A stretch of DNA of 37,549 bases from a virus: positions 1 through 37,549 of IMG/VR virus record IMGVR_UViG_3300046002_003599. One strand, written 5' to 3'. Made by a program: the position numbers and the translations under genes. Under the pieces are notes generated by a model, which ran no database searches, was not told the origin of the DNA, and worked only from the letters and a program-made list of their open reading frames with translations. Positions 4,459 to 37,549 of this stretch are shown here, piece by piece (the stretch's first letter is position 1; the number at the start of each line of letters is the position of its first letter).

Positions 4459-5379
4459 TTAAAATATATTAGGTAATCTTTCACGAACTTTAGCAAAAAT
4501 AAAATGTTGCAAAGTTTTAAAATTAATAGTAGGGTTACGATTTTCTTTTACGAAGTTCCAACATTCCTCTTTTACAATTTCGTAGTAAATAACATTTAAT
4601 AATCTAGGTATCATTTTAGAAGTCCAACCCTCGATACTTTCGATTTTAGCGTATTCTTTCTCGCAAAATGCAGTAGTAACATATTTATCAGCAATTTCTT
4701 CTTCAATCATTTTTTTACCCTCAATAGTTGATTTACCCATTACTTTAGCGTGTTTTTCTTTAAACTCACTTGTTACAATTTTTGCCCATGTTTTACGTCC
4801 AAATTTATTTTTAAAATCATAATTCTTTAAAACAATTCCCTCTCCATAACCTTTGCCATCCTCAATAAGAAAATCATTTTTCATTAATTGATTTACTAAT
4901 TGTTCGTAGTTACTATTTCTAATTACTGAAATAGGAGGTATAAAATCTATTTCGTGTTTTTCTAATAACGGCTTGTAATCGTTGTAATGTAAGTAATTAA
5001 ATTTTTCGTCTGCATCGTGTTGTAATTCTGATAAATCTTTATCTTCTACAACTTCAAAAACATAAAATTTTCTCCACGCATCTGCTCTATATGTTTTTAA
5101 CGAGTGAGGTATTAACCATTCACCAAACAACCTATGAGTTGGATTTTCTTTTAGATAATTTAATAATTTTTCATTTTGTAAAACCCATTCTAAAAAACCT
5201 CCATTGTCTTTATCAATGGTTAAGTGTCTTGTTCTACTTCCCGCTTGTATTTCCCCATTATGAAGCCATACACTTGCGTTAGTTCCGTCTATTTTAGGAA
5301 ATATAAAACATTCCCCTAATTCAATGTTTTGAACCTCTGTTGTTCCAAATCTTTCTAAGTGTTGATACTTTTTAAACAT
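4459..5379 (-). CDS. ATP-dependent RNA ligase (T4 Rnl2-like nucleotidyltransferase)
   Basis: 306 aa. Nucleotidyltransferase motifs in order: motif I K29-I-D-G-T-N (the lysine is adenylylated), GSRTRH at 47-52, motif III FGEWL around E87, motif IV GEGIVLKNY at 179-187, and motif V WAKIV with K200. A helical C-terminal region of about 100 residues follows, as in Rnl2-like ligases. It should seal 3'-OH/5'-phosphate ends in RNA, for example to repair host-cleaved tRNA. It is the first gene after its own promoter (5402-5432) and sits downstream of a phosphoesterase gene and a predicted small RNA. Confidence 0.8.
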   Translation of the reverse strand: MFKKYQHLERFGTTEVQNIELGECFIFPKIDGTNASVWLHNGEIQAGSRTRHLTIDKDNGGFLEWVLQNEKLLNYLKENPTHRLFGEWLIPHSLKTYRADAWRKFYVFEVVEDKDLSELQHDADEKFNYLHYNDYKPLLEKHEIDFIPPISVIRNSNYEQLVNQLMKNDFLIEDGKGYGEGIVLKNYDFKNKFGRKTWAKIVTSEFKEKHAKVMGKSTIEGKKMIEEEIADKYVTTAFCEKEYAKIESIEGWTSKMIPRLLNVIYYEIVKEECWNFVKENRNPTINFKTLQHFIFAKVRERLPNIF

Positions 5380-5572: not shown

Positions 5573-6568
5573 TTAAACGATTTTATAATCTATAATTCTA
5601 ATATTTTTTAAATGATAATTTCCATCTTTATCTGTTTGAACGTGAGCAAAGCCATGATTATAATTATTGTAAGGTGCATAATCAGGTTGCAACCCGCATA
5701 AACAACCCGTACTCCATGTAGTTGTAACCTCCCCTGATAATGATTTTTCCGTATGTTCGCTAGTTCTATGATGATGTCCTATAATACAACTTTGTTTAGC
5801 TTTCATGTACAAACCTCTTGCGGGATTAACCGGTGGTGCAAATCCGCCTTGCCATTCGTGCCCGTGCATTATTGGTAATTTACCCGCCATTGCTATCTGT
5901 TTGTCTTTTACTAAAGTTACTCCAAACTCTCTAAATCTCAAAATAGTTTCAAGTTCAAAGTCTGCAATTCCTAAAAGTTCAGGTGCTTGTATTCTCAAAT
6001 AATCTTCCCATCGTTTCTCATGATTACCTATTTTAAAATAGATAGGACACTTAAATACGTCTTGTAGTTGTTTTAGGAAGTTACGCCCTATTTCTAATTC
6101 ACTCGCTAAATCTCTTTTTCTACGGTCTTTAACAAATCTACTACCGTGATACATATCTAACGTATCACCGTTTAAATAGATTGCATTTACCTTATTTTCA
6201 ATTCCGTACTCTAAAGCTAAATTTAAAGCCTTATTATCTTGATAAGGAAAATGAATATCCGATAAAATTAAAATGTTGTTTTGTCCTTTTGGGATGATAA
6301 AGTTTTCCGTTTTTTGGTAGTCTGACTCAGGAAGTTCAAAGTTACGTTTCATAAATTGTTTTTTAGTTTTTGAATCTCTACTTTCAAAAATACCCTTTCT
6401 GCCCGTGCTTTCATTTCTAAGCCTTTGCACCATTGAACGTGCATTTGATTCGGTAAAATCTAAAGGGTGGTCTTTTATTAAAAGTCTAGCTATTGCACGA
6501 GTAGAAAAGTCAATATATTTCTCGCAATACTCAATAGCGATGTCACATTTATAAGTTTGTTTTGGCAT
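5573..6568 (-). CDS. calcineurin-like metallophosphoesterase with N-terminal HTH-like region
   Basis: 331 aa. Two-metal phosphoesterase motifs in order: D104-x-H106 (LSDIHFP), G134-D135 (NGDTLD), G181-N-H-E184, HGHEW around 235-239, and GHHH at 264-267. The first 60 residues look like a helix-turn-helix (STRAIARLL, then SNARSMVQRLRN), suggesting a nucleic-acid-binding front end. It may remove phosphates from DNA or RNA ends, which would complement the RNA ligase encoded next. The gene has its own promoter (6588-6614) and terminator (5431-5461), so it is a one-gene unit. Confidence 0.8.
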   Translation of the reverse strand: MPKQTYKCDIAIEYCEKYIDFSTRAIARLLIKDHPLDFTESNARSMVQRLRNESTGRKGIFESRDSKTKKQFMKRNFELPESDYQKTENFIIPKGQNNILILSDIHFPYQDNKALNLALEYGIENKVNAIYLNGDTLDMYHGSRFVKDRRKRDLASELEIGRNFLKQLQDVFKCPIYFKIGNHEKRWEDYLRIQAPELLGIADFELETILRFREFGVTLVKDKQIAMAGKLPIMHGHEWQGGFAPPVNPARGLYMKAKQSCIIGHHHRTSEHTEKSLSGEVTTTWSTGCLCGLQPDYAPYNNYNHGFAHVQTDKDGNYHLKNIRIIDYKIV

Positions 6569-33667: not shown

Positions 33668-34092
33668 GGTTTGCTAAATGATTTTAACGCTAGAGTTATC
33701 ATTGCGTTTGTATTTTCTTTTGTAGTTTGTAAATCGTATGTTTCAAAACCTCGTTTTAATAATGGAAAATCTAAAACACCTTTTTTGCAAAGTTCCGATA
33801 ATTCCGTATTGTTTAATTCGTTCATCAAATCGATGTAAAGACTATCAATGTTTAGGTCTAAAACTTGATGCAGTTTTTGTTGTGCAACATCTAAAGATTG
33901 ATAATATTTTATGTAGTGAATTAAATTGTAAATATACAACTTTGCAAAGCATATATTTTTATTAGGGTTTGTTTCTATCGATTCATTAACGAACCATAAT
34001 AGCTTATTAAAAGCCTCTGCATCGTTTGCGTTTGGTTTATTCTGATTTGATATAGTAAATCCTAATCTTTGAAGTGCGTCTTTTACTTTCAT
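33664..34092 (-). CDS. unknown protein between initiator and helicase (possible helicase loader)
   Basis: 142 aa, mostly helical (EAFNKLLWFVNESIETNPNK, IYNLIHYIKYYQSLDVAQQK). It overlaps the initiator and the helicase genes by 4 bases each, the position of lambda P-type loaders. No ATPase motif, so it would be a non-ATPase loader or a replisome accessory. Role is inferred from position only. Confidence 0.55.
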   Translation of the reverse strand: MKVKDALQRLGFTISNQNKPNANDAEAFNKLLWFVNESIETNPNKNICFAKLYIYNLIHYIKYYQSLDVAQQKLHQVLDLNIDSLYIDLMNELNNTELSELCKKGVLDFPLLKRGFETYDLQTTKENTNAMITLALKSFSKP

Positions 34093-34961
34093 AACATTCC
34101 AATTTTAGTAACGTCTTTTTGATACTTACTTACCATAGATGAATAACTGAAAGTATCAATAGTAACATCTGTTAAATTTTCACGGTCTTTTTTTGCGTTA
34201 TCAAAAGCAATTAATAAATGGTCTTTTGAAAATCCACATTGTAACAAATTCAAATAACGTTTTTTTGTTTGCTCAGGAACTTCTGATAATTTTATTTTAG
34301 GATTAAACAAATCATTAAAGTAATCTAAAAATATTTTCCAATCGATTCTTTTATCTTCCGGCAATTCACTTTCTGTATCTTTTTGCTTATAGTCTTTTTT
34401 AAGCCATGTTTTTGCGGTTAAATAAAGAGATTTATATTTTTTGTTTTGTTTATAGTTTTGTATCTTTTCAAAACAATCAAATATATCTTCTTCTTTATAC
34501 TCATTAAGCAATTTACTAAAATCTAATTCCGTAATAGACAAATGCTCAAAAGAATATATTATATTGTTATTTTGTTTTATTATACTATCAGTGCTTTGTA
34601 CTGTGCTTTCGCCTTGCTTTGTATCGTGCTTTATTAGTGCTTTGTCTAATGCTTTGTTAGGTGCTTTATCAAAATTTGATAGAGCAACTATATTGCTACT
34701 AAATTGATTTTTTGATTTTTCAACTAAGATAATTAAACCAAAATCTACTAAATCGTTTAGCGTTTCCATGTAAGTATTGTAACTTCTTATCCCAATAGCT
34801 TCTTTTGCCATTGTAGTAGGTAGTCCTAATTTATCACGCCACCCTAATCTATTGTTATGTTCAACAATAAATAAAAATAATGCACAATGATTTGGTTTGA
34901 TTTTGTCGGGGTTTTCAAAAGCAAAATCCCAAAATGAACGGGTTAATGTAAAGTAATCCAT
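34089..34961 (-). CDS. replication initiator with N-terminal winged helix, origin encoded inside
   Basis: 290 aa. N-terminal 95 residues look like a winged-helix domain (HCALFLFIVEHNNRLGWRDK, SYNTYMETLNDLVDFGLIIL). Residues about 99-124 are a linker encoded by seven heptamer repeats. The C-terminal part (SELPEDKRIDWKIFLDYFND, CGFSKDHLLIAFDNAKKDRE) resembles phage replication organisers. By analogy with lambda O, it should bind the iterons within its own gene and recruit the helicase. The leader upstream contains three hairpins. Confidence 0.7.
   Translation of the reverse strand: MDYFTLTRSFWDFAFENPDKIKPNHCALFLFIVEHNNRLGWRDKLGLPTTMAKEAIGIRSYNTYMETLNDLVDFGLIILVEKSKNQFSSNIVALSNFDKAPNKALDKALIKHDTKQGESTVQSTDSIIKQNNNIIYSFEHLSITELDFSKLLNEYKEEDIFDCFEKIQNYKQNKKYKSLYLTAKTWLKKDYKQKDTESELPEDKRIDWKIFLDYFNDLFNPKIKLSEVPEQTKKRYLNLLQCGFSKDHLLIAFDNAKKDRENLTDVTIDTFSYSSMVSKYQKDVTKIGML
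34550..34667. other. putative replication origin: seven phased heptamers plus AT-rich tract
   Basis: GTGCTTT or one-base variants begin at 34591, 34603, 34614, 34626, 34637, 34649 and 34661, so spacing is 12, 11, 12, 11, 12, 12 bp, about one helical turn. In the coding strand AAAGCAC is read in all three frames, so the repeat is conserved as DNA, not as peptide. The adjoining stretch 34550-34588 is almost pure A/T, a candidate unwinding element. The arrangement copies lambda ori inside gene O. Confidence 0.75.
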
Positions 34962-34976
34962 AATATTATTATTAAA

Positions 34977-35069
34977 GACAAAACCCCTAAAGAGCCACTA
35001 CACATCTTTAAGGGTTTGTCGGTGCTAAAATTAATTAGCAAAATTTTCCTTGTAAGCAGTGGTTTACAA
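34977..35069 (-). promoter_or_regulatory. structured leader of the replication operon with complementary loops
   Basis: Between the promoter at 35073-35102 and the initiator ATG the RNA can form: hairpin 1, TTGTAA/TTACAA (35069-35064 with 35055-35050), loop ACCACTGC; a small GCTAA/TTAGC hairpin; hairpin 3, a 15-16 base imperfect stem (35020-35006 with 34992-34977). CCACUGC in loop 1 can pair with GUAGUGG in loop 3 (7 bp, one G-U that exists only in the transcript strand). Hairpin 3 ends 16 bases before the ATG. Confidence 0.5.
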
Positions 35070-35072
35070 ATG

Positions 35073-35102
35073 CAAATCTAAGTAAAAAAAAGTTACCCGC
35101 AA
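35073..35102 (-). promoter_or_regulatory. Bacteroidota-type promoter for the replication operon
   Basis: Minus strand TTG at 35102-35100, 19-base spacer, TAGATTTG at 35080-35073. The -33 element lies inside the loop of the terminator at 35084-35117, the same terminator/promoter stacking seen at 5.4 and 6.6 kb. Confidence 0.65.
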
Positions 35103-35117
35103 AATAATTACGGGTAA
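35084..35117 (-). terminator. Rho-independent terminator after the single-strand DNA-binding protein gene
   Basis: Minus strand TTACCCG (35117-35111) pairs perfectly with CGGGTAA (35099-35093), 11-base loop, then CTTTTTTTT. Confidence 0.8.
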
Positions 35118-35126
35118 ATTTTAAAA

Positions 35127-35177
35127 CTAGCAGGCGGTCAGGTGACACCCCAACCCTTATCTTGTTAGACCTACTAG
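35127..35177 (-). other. GC-rich stem-loop in the 3' untranslated region
   Basis: CTAGTAGG (35177-35170) pairs with CCTGCTAG (35134-35127), 8 bp with one G-U, enclosing a 35-base loop with GGTGTCACC. It stands out as GC-rich in very AT-rich surroundings and lies between the end of the SSB-like tail frame (35190) and the terminator. Purpose unknown. Confidence 0.45.
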
Positions 35178-35189
35178 CTTTTTTAAATG

Positions 35190-35280
35190 CTAAAAAGGCA
35201 AATCATTAGCAGCCTCGTTCAACTCGCTAACCGTTTCAAAAGGTTGTCCTACTACTTCATTAACTACATTGTTAACTTGT
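35190..35280 (-). other. out-of-frame acidic tail of the single-strand DNA-binding protein
   Basis: Just past the TAA at 35274-35272, the +1 frame encodes VVGQPFETVSELNEAANDLP then Phe and a stop at 35192-35190. DUF3127 proteins and SSBs normally end in such an acidic tail with DLPF. The frame is therefore part of the same gene, separated by one base: mutation, sequencing error or programmed +1 frameshift at AGT-TAA-C. Confidence 0.7.
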
Positions 35281-35541
35281 TGTGAATGCGTTAATCTTCC
35301 AACCTTGTAAATTTACATAAAACTTACCGTTATACTCTGAACCTCTCACGTTAACATCAACGGTTATTTCTTGTCCTACTTTGTAACTATCTAAAATACT
35401 ACATTTGTCTTTTATAAAATCAATAGCAACCTTTTGCGGGTATTGCTCGCTGGTTTCAACTACAATTTGTCTTTTGGTAAATCCGTTGTTACCTACTGTT
35501 TCTGTTTGTCCAATTAAATGAACCTTTCCAATGATTTGCAT
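35272..35541 (-). CDS. single-strand DNA-binding-like protein (DUF3127 type), tail out of frame
   Basis: 89 aa from ATG 35541 (MQIIGKVHLIGQTETV); the longer frame from 35619 covers the previous gene and is rejected. Contains TKRQIVVETSEQYPQKVAID and SYKVGQEITVDVNVRGSEYN, an OB-like domain of the DUF3127 family. Expected role: coat single-stranded DNA in replication and annealing, together with ERF upstream. The stop TAA at 35274 cuts off the conserved acidic tail, which lies in the +1 frame down to 35190. Confidence 0.75.
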   Translation of the reverse strand: MQIIGKVHLIGQTETVGNNGFTKRQIVVETSEQYPQKVAIDFIKDKCSILDSYKVGQEITVDVNVRGSEYNGKFYVNLQGWKINAFTTS

Positions 35542-35581
35542 AATTATATATTTAAAGTTAATATTACGGTGATTATCGCCG

Positions 35582-35797
35582 TTATTTGTGCCTCTTATCA
35601 AAAAGATATTTCTGTACATCGTTTTTAGCCTTACGCTCCGCTTTCTTTAAAGATAGATAATATTTATCCTCTTTATTTATTTCGTACTCGTCAGACTCCC
35701 TTAATTCTACATAAGTAAACTGCCCTCTTATTTCGTTTGGTAAGTTGTCAAAATCTTGACTTCTCATTCTTAAAAAATATTCCTTTGAACCTGTCAT
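35582..35797 (-). CDS. small charged hypothetical protein (71 aa)
   Basis: Highly charged helices (TYVELRESDEYEINKEDKYY, SLKKAERKAKNDVQKYLFDK). Overlaps the HNH gene by ATGA. Probably a small early protein acting with the recombination genes; no family recognised. Confidence 0.55.
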   Translation of the reverse strand: MTGSKEYFLRMRSQDFDNLPNEIRGQFTYVELRESDEYEINKEDKYYLSLKKAERKAKNDVQKYLFDKRHK

Positions 35798-36288
35798 AAT
35801 AATTGTTTTAATGCGTTATTGTATGTGTTACTTGCATCTATTTCACATTCAAAATTTCCTAAAAATTTTTGCTTTCCATTTATTGTTATCTGCGAACGAT
35901 ATTTTTTTATTGTATTACAAAAATGAACACCTAAATACTTACTACTGCTTGATAAATGTTTTTGATTTGCATTTTCTCTTTGAGTAATTATTTCTAAATT
36001 TTCAACTCTATTGTCTTTTCTTATAAAATTTTTATGATTTATAACAATTTTATATCCATTAGGAATATGATTTAAAAAAACAATAGCAACTAAATGATGT
36101 ACATATCTTGTTTTACTTTTATTATTTTTTCTTAAAACAACAGTATCATAATTAGAAACTCCACTACTTTTTATTAAAGCAATTTCTTTTTTAGACCTTT
36201 TATAATTTAAGCTCTTTACGTTTCCTAAATTACTAACCTGATAAAGTCCTTCATACTCAGGAATGTCTTTATAAATTTCTTCTATCAT
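35794..36288 (-). CDS. HNH homing-type endonuclease with NUMOD4 and AP2-like domains
   Basis: 164 aa. NUMOD4 motif IPEYEGLYQVSNLGNVKSL at 9-27; the HNH core runs from VHHLVAIVFLNHIPNGYKI through VINHKNFIRKDNRVENLEII; residues about 115-160 form an AP2-like DNA-binding domain (KYLGVHFCNTIKKYRSQITI, GKQKFLGNF). This is the structure of free-standing homing endonucleases. It sits between ERF and the SSB-like gene but with ATGA overlaps at both ends, so it is well integrated into the operon. Confidence 0.8.
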   Translation of the reverse strand: MIEEIYKDIPEYEGLYQVSNLGNVKSLNYKRSKKEIALIKSSGVSNYDTVVLRKNNKSKTRYVHHLVAIVFLNHIPNGYKIVINHKNFIRKDNRVENLEIITQRENANQKHLSSSSKYLGVHFCNTIKKYRSQITINGKQKFLGNFECEIDASNTYNNALKQLL

Positions 36289-36800
36289 TGTAAAGTGTTT
36301 TTAAGTTGGTCTTTAAGTTTTAACGTTGCGGTTTTTTCAGCGGGTGTAAATGACGTATAAACCGTTTGTAATTCCGCTTTAGTAGTACAAGCCATTAACC
36401 TTGCGTTTAGTTTTTCAACGTTTAACGTTAAAGTAGGTTCTTTAGTACTCGCTTTATTTGCGTCGTCGTCCTCCGCTTGAAGTCCTAATAAAGATTGAAG
36501 TGTATAACGTCGATAATATGTTATTGCACTTCCTAACTTTTGAGGGTCGTTAAATTGCGTTAATTGGATTGAACTCTCAACACTCAATTCACTTTCACAA
36601 TGATAAATAATTGATTTTACCTCGTTGTTAATTATCGGTTGTAATAGTAACAATCCGTTTTTTTCTAGTAACGGTTCGACTTGCTCAATCAAACTATTAA
36701 TATCAAAATACTTTGATTTAAAGAATGGGTTTGTTTCCGTTTTAGATAACTTACCTACTTCTTTTTTTACGTTGGCTAATGCTTTTAGTAATTCTTTCAT
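36285..36800 (-). CDS. erf: ERF-family single-strand annealing protein
   Basis: 171 aa. KTETNPFFKSKYFDINSLIE, then DPQKLGSAITYYRRYTLQSL and LLGLQAEDDDAN form the ERF signature. Such proteins anneal complementary strands for recombination and genome circularisation. The C-terminus (EPTLTLNVEKLNARLMACTT onwards) is a separate helical region. First gene after a structured leader; followed by the nuclease and the single-strand DNA-binding protein. Confidence 0.85.
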   Translation of the reverse strand: MKELLKALANVKKEVGKLSKTETNPFFKSKYFDINSLIEQVEPLLEKNGLLLLQPIINNEVKSIIYHCESELSVESSIQLTQFNDPQKLGSAITYYRRYTLQSLLGLQAEDDDANKASTKEPTLTLNVEKLNARLMACTTKAELQTVYTSFTPAEKTATLKLKDQLKNTLQ

Positions 36801-36817
36801 AATTAATTTAGTTAAAA

Positions 36818-36901
36818 ATGCCTTTAAAAATTGTGTAAGGTATCAGGTTACACGCATTTTAAAGGCTAATTCTTTTTAGTTACCCCGTTTGATACCGTAA
36901 C
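36818..36901 (-). promoter_or_regulatory. structured leader of the ERF operon with two loops able to kiss
   Basis: Hairpin A: GTTAC/GTAAC (36901-36897 with 36883-36879), loop containing GGTATCA. Hairpin B: GCCTTTAAAA/TTTTAAAGGC (36866-36857 with 36829-36820), 3x3 internal loop, GTGTAA/TTACAC (36853-36848 with 36838-36833), loop CCTGATACC. TGATACC in loop B is fully complementary to GGTATCA in loop A (7 bp). Hairpin B is followed by ATTTTTAA, and the ERF ATG is 20 bases below. Confidence 0.6.
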
Positions 36902-36908
36902 TGTTTAG

Positions 36909-36916
36909 CAAAAATA
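36909..36916 (-). promoter_or_regulatory. possible -7 element of the ERF operon promoter
   Basis: TATTTTTG on the minus strand, fitting TAnnTTTG, directly above the structured leader. No TTG is seen at the right distance upstream, so the promoter is uncertain; transcription may also continue from the methyltransferase gene. Confidence 0.4.
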
Positions 36917-36929
36917 CAATTAATATTGT

Positions 36930-37058
36930 TTACTTCTTAGAATTTAATGTTAAAATTTTGAAGTAAAGCGAATTTATACGCTCGGAATTTACGCCACGTG
37001 AGTAGTAAAAGTTCATTACTCGTTTAATTCTCGTGATAGGTTTTAACTTTGATTTCAT
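36930..37058 (-). CDS. small basic protein (42 aa)
   Basis: ATG 37058..37056 overlaps the methyltransferase TAA (TAATG); stop TAA 36932..36930. Very basic with aromatic residues (KSKLKPITRIKRVMNFYYSR), suggesting nucleic-acid binding. No family named. The start-stop overlap is the main support. Confidence 0.6.
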   Translation of the reverse strand: MKSKLKPITRIKRVMNFYYSRGVNSERINSLYFKILTLNSKK

Positions 37059-37549
37059 TAGAATAGTTTTTGTTGTGAAACGTGGTTTTTTACTCGTTGT
37101 ATTCCTTTATCGTAGTACTCTTTATCCAATTCTGCCCCAACCAATTCAAATCCGTAATCGTGACAAGCTATTGCGATTGACATTGAACCTAAATGGGTGT
37201 CTAGTATTTTGTCGCCTTGTTTGGCATAGTTATCTAAACAGAATTTATATAATTGTATTGGTTTTGCAGTAGGATGAAACCTATTTACGTCTTGGCTTCT
37301 TACTTCGTATGTTTTAGCCACTTTGTCAAAAGAAGTCCACCTAAATTCCCAACGGCTTAAAGTTTCCATCATTTGTTTTTTATCCCAACAAATAATTCCT
37401 CTTGTATTGTAAAGATGTTCTATAAAATAATTTCCACCCCAAATTATTTGGTTTTTAGACACTCTCATTAATTCCTTAAAATATTCAGGTCTTGGAATTT
37501 CATCATCCCATTTCTTTTCCTTAAAACTTTCTTTGTATTTTTTCATGAT
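37058..37549 (-). CDS. DNA amino-methyltransferase, C-terminal part
   Basis: Continues the gene begun at 1-272; the window edge falls inside it. NQIIWGGNYF (conserved after motif IV), EIPRPEYFKELMRVSK before it, and near the end KILDTHLGSMSIAIACHDYG plus FELVGAELDKEYY, which correspond to motif I (SAM binding) and the following acidic residue. HLGSMS replaces the usual FxGxGT, a variant common in phage enzymes. Its stop overlaps the ATG of a 42-aa basic protein. Confidence 0.85.
   Translation of the reverse strand: MMKKYKESFKEKKWDDEIPRPEYFKELMRVSKNQIIWGGNYFIEHLYNTRGIICWDKKQMMETLSRWEFRWTSFDKVAKTYEVRSQDVNRFHPTAKPIQLYKFCLDNYAKQGDKILDTHLGSMSIAIACHDYGFELVGAELDKEYYDKGIQRVKNHVSQQKLF
37424..37549. 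repeat. terminal direct repeat, right copy
   Basis: Identical to 3-128. The two bases before it (37422-37423, AT) differ from bases 1-2 (GG). See the left copy for interpretation. Confidence 0.9.

Follow-up and report, generated by a model that had tools for sequence, protein, structure and literature searches.

The described systems that come closest to the leaders reported here include the c4 antisense RNA of P1, a phage RNA with its complementary target nearby, and the attenuator of pT181, whose repC is a replication gene. In pT181-type attenuators, according to excerpts of PMC3753616, kissing hairpins control a leader terminator, and the recognition hairpin has to carry an interior loop at its top; the motif table of PMC2864571 lists both c4 and c4-a1b1. 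The put RNAs of HK022 (putL, putR) are presented in passages of PMC9378689 as about 70 nt long with two stem-loops, one RNA per early operon, which act against intrinsic terminators without a dedicated protein and give read-through of downstream terminators via the β′ zinc-binding domain. In P4, as outlined in part of PMC4825925, an RNA that arises by processing of the leader transcript pairs with two sites, seqA upstream of it and seqC downstream, whereupon transcription of the replication genes ends prematurely. The leaders studied here resemble put in having a two-hairpin RNA near the start of both early operons, put being known to affect termination, and they resemble the P4 CI RNA in lying before replication genes with an upstream element complementary to later leader RNA. 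With pT181 they share conserved interior loops, often present in hairpin 2, whereas pT181 uses a separate antisense RNA and the leaders carry both loops on one RNA. None of the four systems, as described in these passages, has both kissing loops in cis together with free exchange of the loop letters.

The stretch of DNA analysed (the window) is a virus record of 37,549 bases, and the host of this phage is inferred from relatives only. The leader upstream of the replication initiator and a second one farther along the minus strand are laid out in Table 1. For the initiator gene, no Pfam match was obtained, while a second profile, PHROG 18020 (replication initiation O-like), matched with E 6.7e-4. 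The transcript start was predicted near 35068 because the TAnnTTTG box of Flavobacterium psychrophilum lies at −12 to −5 (excerpt of PMC9723704). This start lies within the 5′ arm of hairpin 1, and a fold from there keeps five of the six stem pairs (UGUAA/UUACA). The first-pass annotation had regarded a start below 35064 as evidence against its proposal; the start predicted here lies above that position. No TAnnTTTG box was listed on the plus strand between 34462 and 35407. The minimum free energy (MFE) fold of 35071-34960 has −30.6 kcal/mol (z −4.2), equalled by 1 of 200 shuffles, and an AU-rich stretch lies between hairpin 2 and the initiator ATG (34961) on the minus strand. Hairpin 2 was absent from the terminator prediction for the window, the rule of which admits only loops of 3-8. 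At 35177-35125 (minus), between the SSB-like gene and the predicted terminator, GCTAGTAGG ... CCTGCTAG may form an extra hairpin with a G-rich middle.

Table 1. Elements of the two leaders, the genes that follow them and the neighbouring terminator, in window coordinates.
Feature	Position	Strand	Basis or remark
Second leader, promoter box TATTTTTG	36916-36909	−	sequence
Second leader, hairpin 1, AGUUAC/GUAACU	36878..36902	−	element 1 GGUAUCA 36896-36890
Second leader, hairpin 2, GCCUUUAAA/UUUAAAGGC, then AUUUUU	36820..36866	−	element 2 UGAUACC 36845-36839
Erf-family ssDNA annealing protein, first gene after second leader	36285..36800	−	PF04404 E 1.2e-22; PHROG 2324 E 1.2e-38
Predicted terminator	35117-35093		parts initiator operon from preceding operon
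TTTG, −33-like promoter part	35100..35103	−	sequence; 19 nt upstream of −7 box
−7 box TAGATTTG, Bacteroidota promoter (TAnnTTTG)	35073..35080	−	sequence; predicted start near 35068
Hairpin 1, 5′-terminal, stem UUGUAA/UUACAA	35049..35070	−	MFE fold
Kissing element 1 CCACUGC, hairpin 1 loop	35056..35062	−	7/7 nt unpaired, folded from predicted start
Middle hairpin UGCUAA/UUAGCA, in linker	35023..35040	−	MFE fold
Hairpin 2, terminator-like, GACAAACCCUUAAAGA/UCUUUAGGGGUUUUGUC	34977..35020	−	MFE fold
Kissing element 2 GUAGUGG, hairpin 2 apical loop	34995..35001	−	6/7 nt unpaired, folded from predicted start
U-rich 3′ part and tail of hairpin 2	34972..34988	−	sequence; weak in window relative to relatives
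Initiator / replisome organizer, gene after first leader	34089..34961	−	PHROG 13246 replisome organizer E 5.5e-6

The complementarity of the two loops over 7 nt, noticed in the first-pass annotation, is present in the window as six Watson–Crick pairs and one G-U pair. Taken alone, this pairing is weak and not beyond chance: a match of 7 bp with at most one G-U and at least three G/C, between stretches of leader size, occurred by sequence alone in 15% of shuffles and 16% of swapped pairs, and 7.6% of swapped pairs reached at least 8 bp. The comparison with relatives makes the observation firm. Upstream regions of initiator relatives were picked by position, ignoring complementarity, and those above 85% identity were merged, leaving 56 non-redundant regions. 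A promoter box 70-125 nt before the start was found in 21 of them; several of the 35 regions without a box there (L015, L019, L024, L025, L027 and L028 among them) have a leader farther upstream. At least 7 complementary bp were present in 19 of the 21 box-bearing regions, against the swapped and shuffled rates given above, and in the other two (L098 and L101) the upstream sequence looks coding. Loss of the complementarity in relatives had been named beforehand as an observation that would speak against the pairing, and the relatives keep it. These 19 regions were also folded as single strands with loop-loop pairing left out; the stem of hairpin 2 was present in the folds, and 82% and 83% of the nucleotides in elements 1 and 2 were unpaired, compared with 44% of the other bases.

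RNA helices, including the kissing helix, and their compensatory evolution are well established at the level of sequence. The members of the two alignments used came mostly from a scan requiring complementarity, which inflates the figures that follow, while the 19/21 count is free of this bias. With that inflation, the kissing helix of one subtype (15 leaders) had 6 of 8 pairs changed on both sides and 90.8% of cells paired, and the whole structure was 84.6% paired, against 63% in shuffled alignments and at most 53.2% with partners slid by one column. The subtype of the window (window, L002, L043, L069 and L085; n=5, equally inflated) had all cells of the kissing helix paired (100%) and 3 of its 7 pairs doubly changed, double changes at 6 of 16 pairs of hairpin 2, and a covariation of 0.404 versus 0.180 when shuffled. 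The middle hairpin has other, still self-complementary sequences in L002, L043 and L069 (from folds) and in L085 (by inspection). Two additional members of this subtype are L181 (CCACUAC/GUAGUGG) and L187 (CUCUCAC/GUGAGAG). The selection on loop pairing at the RNA level proposed in the first-pass annotation is thus backed by compensatory changes in relatives, the covariation check having been run. The pointer originally given for it, a G-U pair that would be A-C on the opposite strand, was confirmed as a pair; as an argument it is weak alone. In the four other members of the subtype, and also in L181 and L187, that pair is A-U, from which the G-U of the window differs by a change on one side only.

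The strongest natural case of covariation, as read from the alleles, comes from cultured phages of the Flavobacterium hosts LMO6/LMO9, which are virulent according to the part of PMC7077304 that deals with them. At one locus, otherwise similar leaders carry three compensated alleles: GUGAGAC/GUCUCAC in sniff9-1 and others, GUGGAAC/GUUCCAC in mumin6-1 and snusmum9-1, and GUGAGAA/UUCUCAC in morran9-1. Three natural alleles within one phage group offer a straightforward test. Cultured records with a leader include Polaribacter phage Danklef_1, Flavobacterium phage 11b, Olleya phage Harreka_1 and Flavobacterium phage sniff9-1, the last with two.

The spread of the design was determined with a leader scan asking for a promoter box, element 1 shortly after it, the complement of that element within a stem-loop, and a T-rich tail. 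In 24 phage records, 33 leaders were found at a score of at least 44, against 0.4 per shuffle set, and 30 against 0 at a score of at least 46. A leader was present in 23 of the 24 records, which is not a prevalence because most records were chosen for carrying one. Nine records had two or more leaders (score of at least 44), and the loop sequences differed within each of the nine. Among 149 additional loci, 54 matches were obtained, with 0 in shuffled sequences. Both scans combined gave 79 non-redundant leaders with 61 distinct first elements, a set that includes a few doubtful cases (e.g., L011 minus, L124 minus and L183 at 4632). In these 79, element 1 starts at a median of 12 nt from the box and element 2 at 64 nt, and a TTG lies 17-23 nt upstream of the box in 31, compared with 4 at a control offset. 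The first four positions after hairpin 2 are T in 81, 80, 77 and 72% of 64 leaders, T having been scored in the selection, and beyond them the share is about 35%. Hairpin 2 comes in different builds, one with a 4×4 interior loop UGAA/GGAU, one with an AGUA/GAAA interior loop, which we take to resemble the bulged-G motif, and the build of the window. Covariance model R3 picked up other leader subtypes only weakly, and model R1, run against five bacterial genomes, gave only weak matches (best E 0.06), in two of the five. A minimal leader without a clear hairpin 1 was seen in L151, L168 and L170, where TTCGCTACAA stands shortly after the promoter box and TTGTAGCGAG in a terminator-like hairpin loop about 37 nt later. 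Its letters are identical in these three different phages, and it precedes unknown and lipoprotein-like genes.

The second leader of the window had a scan score of 45.9, between the thresholds at which shuffles gave 0.4 matches per set (≥44) and none (≥46). The operon behind it also holds an HNH gene and a DUF3127 SSB-like protein in addition to Erf. The claim that two early operons have the same design was borne out by this leader before Erf, and the two-leader pattern was found again in cultured Flavobacterium phages; the shared regulatory principle that had been drawn from it is plausible, its mechanism being conjectural. Twenty ORFs behind leaders elsewhere were tested and comprised replication initiators belonging to other families, HNH endonucleases, a DNA helicase, Erf, RecT and one RNase H-like protein, as well as some unknowns and one lipoprotein-like protein. 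Since unrelated families follow the leaders, the element appears to track function and not one protein family. Autoregulation by the initiator through its own leader was likewise considered unlikely, given these unrelated gene families. On the sequences compared, a fixed position after the promoter box and placement before early DNA-metabolism genes are well-established properties of the leaders. HNH-type endonuclease genes often stand directly after a leader (L024 6680, L027 3520, L134 12937, L171 on the minus strand, and L181 1777), identified by search in L171 and by N-terminal resemblance or record annotation in the other four, so the leader may travel with HNH genes.

The most likely role of the leader is to determine how much transcription passes the U tract in front of early DNA-metabolism operons. 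With modest confidence, the cis-acting leader RNA can be regarded as an attenuator based on a kissing complex within one molecule. From the early promoter, transcription would begin at or just upstream of hairpin 1, which would thus be the 5′ end of the mRNA and would be ready by the time loop 2 emerges. About 50 nt later, the terminator-like hairpin 2 would form, and 7-9 bp would join its apical loop to that of hairpin 1. This pairing would leave the stem of hairpin 2 free, and both could coexist. Termination versus read-through at the U-rich tract before the start codon would then set the output of the replication (or recombination) operon. Hairpin 2 presumably terminates in vivo, and the kissing complex may alter termination, most likely in that it stabilises hairpin 2 or sets its timing; the outcome could be modulated by the infection stage or by a factor of the phage or the host.

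Interaction energies were calculated for 76 leaders, i.e., the 79 minus three that were too short. The upstream RNA paired with loop 2 at a mean of −12.8 kcal/mol, against −5.3 kcal/mol when shuffled, while its pairing with the 5′ arm of hairpin 2 (−6.05 versus −5.48 kcal/mol shuffled) gave no conserved antiterminator. A classical terminator/antiterminator switch, with an alternative pairing of that arm, therefore had no signal, and the terminator-like hairpin and the loop-loop complex probably form jointly. Arguments against the attenuator are that the pairing is compatible with hairpin 2, so the way in which it would switch termination is not obvious, that the U tract of the window itself is weak, and that hairpin 2 is missing from the terminator prediction.

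More tentatively, the leaders might represent a large, undescribed class of RNA regulators in Bacteroidota phages, in which a 5′-terminal hairpin and a terminator hairpin of one nascent RNA kiss through their loops, thereby setting early-operon read-through without a sequence-specific protein. If this were true, any complementary loop pair would work, so that each leader could be addressed independently as a switch of its own, and two elements with equal loops in one cell should interfere. If the kissing complex controls termination, it would be a natural cis counterpart of the antisense attenuators of synthetic biology, with freely rewritable loop letters.

Among the alternatives to the attenuator, a post-transcriptional element is fairly unlikely. 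The kissing complex would here protect the mRNA 5′ end or shape ribosome access, with the U-rich tract as a translation-friendly spacer. Hairpin 1 does coincide with the predicted 5′ end, the distance from the end of hairpin 2 to the candidate start codon is 3-23 nt in 38 of the 41 leaders measured, and a U/A-rich stretch in front of that codon could be of use to translation where hosts lack Shine–Dalgarno sites. However, T rather than A dominates just after the stem (in part through selection), and the distance to the start can vary widely between near-identical leaders, being 17 nt in L126 and 47 nt in L125.

A protein-free antiterminator of the HK022 put type is also unlikely. In such a case, the kissing complex would stay on the nascent RNA, bind RNA polymerase and allow it to pass hairpin 2 and later terminators in both early operons. 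The leaders are likewise compact RNAs with two key hairpins, one such RNA behind each of two early promoters, but the put passages of PMC9378689 describe no loop-loop complementarity and present copies that share their sequence, whereas the leader loops vary freely and hairpin 2 is terminator-like.

An improbable reading is a trans-acting RNA comparable to the P4 CI RNA, in which a hairpin 2 set free through processing or termination would pair with element 1 of other transcripts and stop the replication genes, giving a sequence-coded phage exclusion. The order of the elements and the target operon match P4, and loops that differ within each of the nine multi-leader records would suit exclusion. 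Nevertheless, cis pairing should outcompete trans pairing, the carriers include the virulent Flavobacterium phages, and the complementarity of the leaders lies in two hairpin loops. Only 4 of 64 leaders (null 1.5%) had a third copy, seqC-like and at least 6 nt long, so the third copy at the start codon suggested by L001, L005, L006 and L059 was rejected as a general feature. Nor do the loop letters evolve faster than the rest: in seven leaders of one scaffold (L237 left out), 587 of 2000 random column sets were as variable as the kissing columns, and the immunity-type idea of diversifying selection on the loops was left unsupported. L059, at about 2640-2776, appears from its sequence to have the clearest seqA/seqB/seqC-like arrangement, with ACAACACAATGA near the 5′ end, its complement later and a third copy immediately ahead of where the initiator starts. 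L040 and L001 share the start region ACTCACTATGG despite differing loops.

Inverted repeats acting in the DNA, as operators or origin sites of a DNA-binding protein, are very improbable. The elements do form an inverted repeat near the replication initiator, yet they sit in the loops of separate, independently covarying RNA hairpins, the window pair includes a G-U, the design stands before unrelated genes, and strand-swapped pairs exist (GTGAGAA/TTCTCAC in L136, TTCTCAC/GTGAGAA in L003 and L111). Chance complementarity, for which the expectation of about 15% for a 7-bp match at one locus might be cited, is practically negligible in view of the 19 of 21 relatives, the covariation alignments and both leader scans.

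In Rfam 15, no match at the gathering threshold was obtained for the window or for 19 leader loci, which also separates the leaders from P1 c4 (RF01695) and c4-a1b1; at E up to 10, the region 34900-37000 gave unrelated sub-threshold matches only. In the open-licence literature, no description was found linking kissing loops, terminators and leaders with phages of Bacteroidota, nor one of early-gene control of such a kind in these phages. A covarying RNA element before replication and recombination operons, occurring also in cultured virulent phages of Flavobacterium, is thus absent from Rfam 15.

Two further observations were made in the window. An RNA ligase gene (PF09414, E 1.4e-16) adjoins a metallophosphoesterase gene (PF00149) at 4459-5379 and 5573-6568, both on the minus strand, and the two are possibly an RNA repair pair. 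At 37058-37546 (minus), on the edge of the record, a match to N6_N4_Mtase is confined to the C-terminal portion of the profile, and the record may therefore be truncated at that end.
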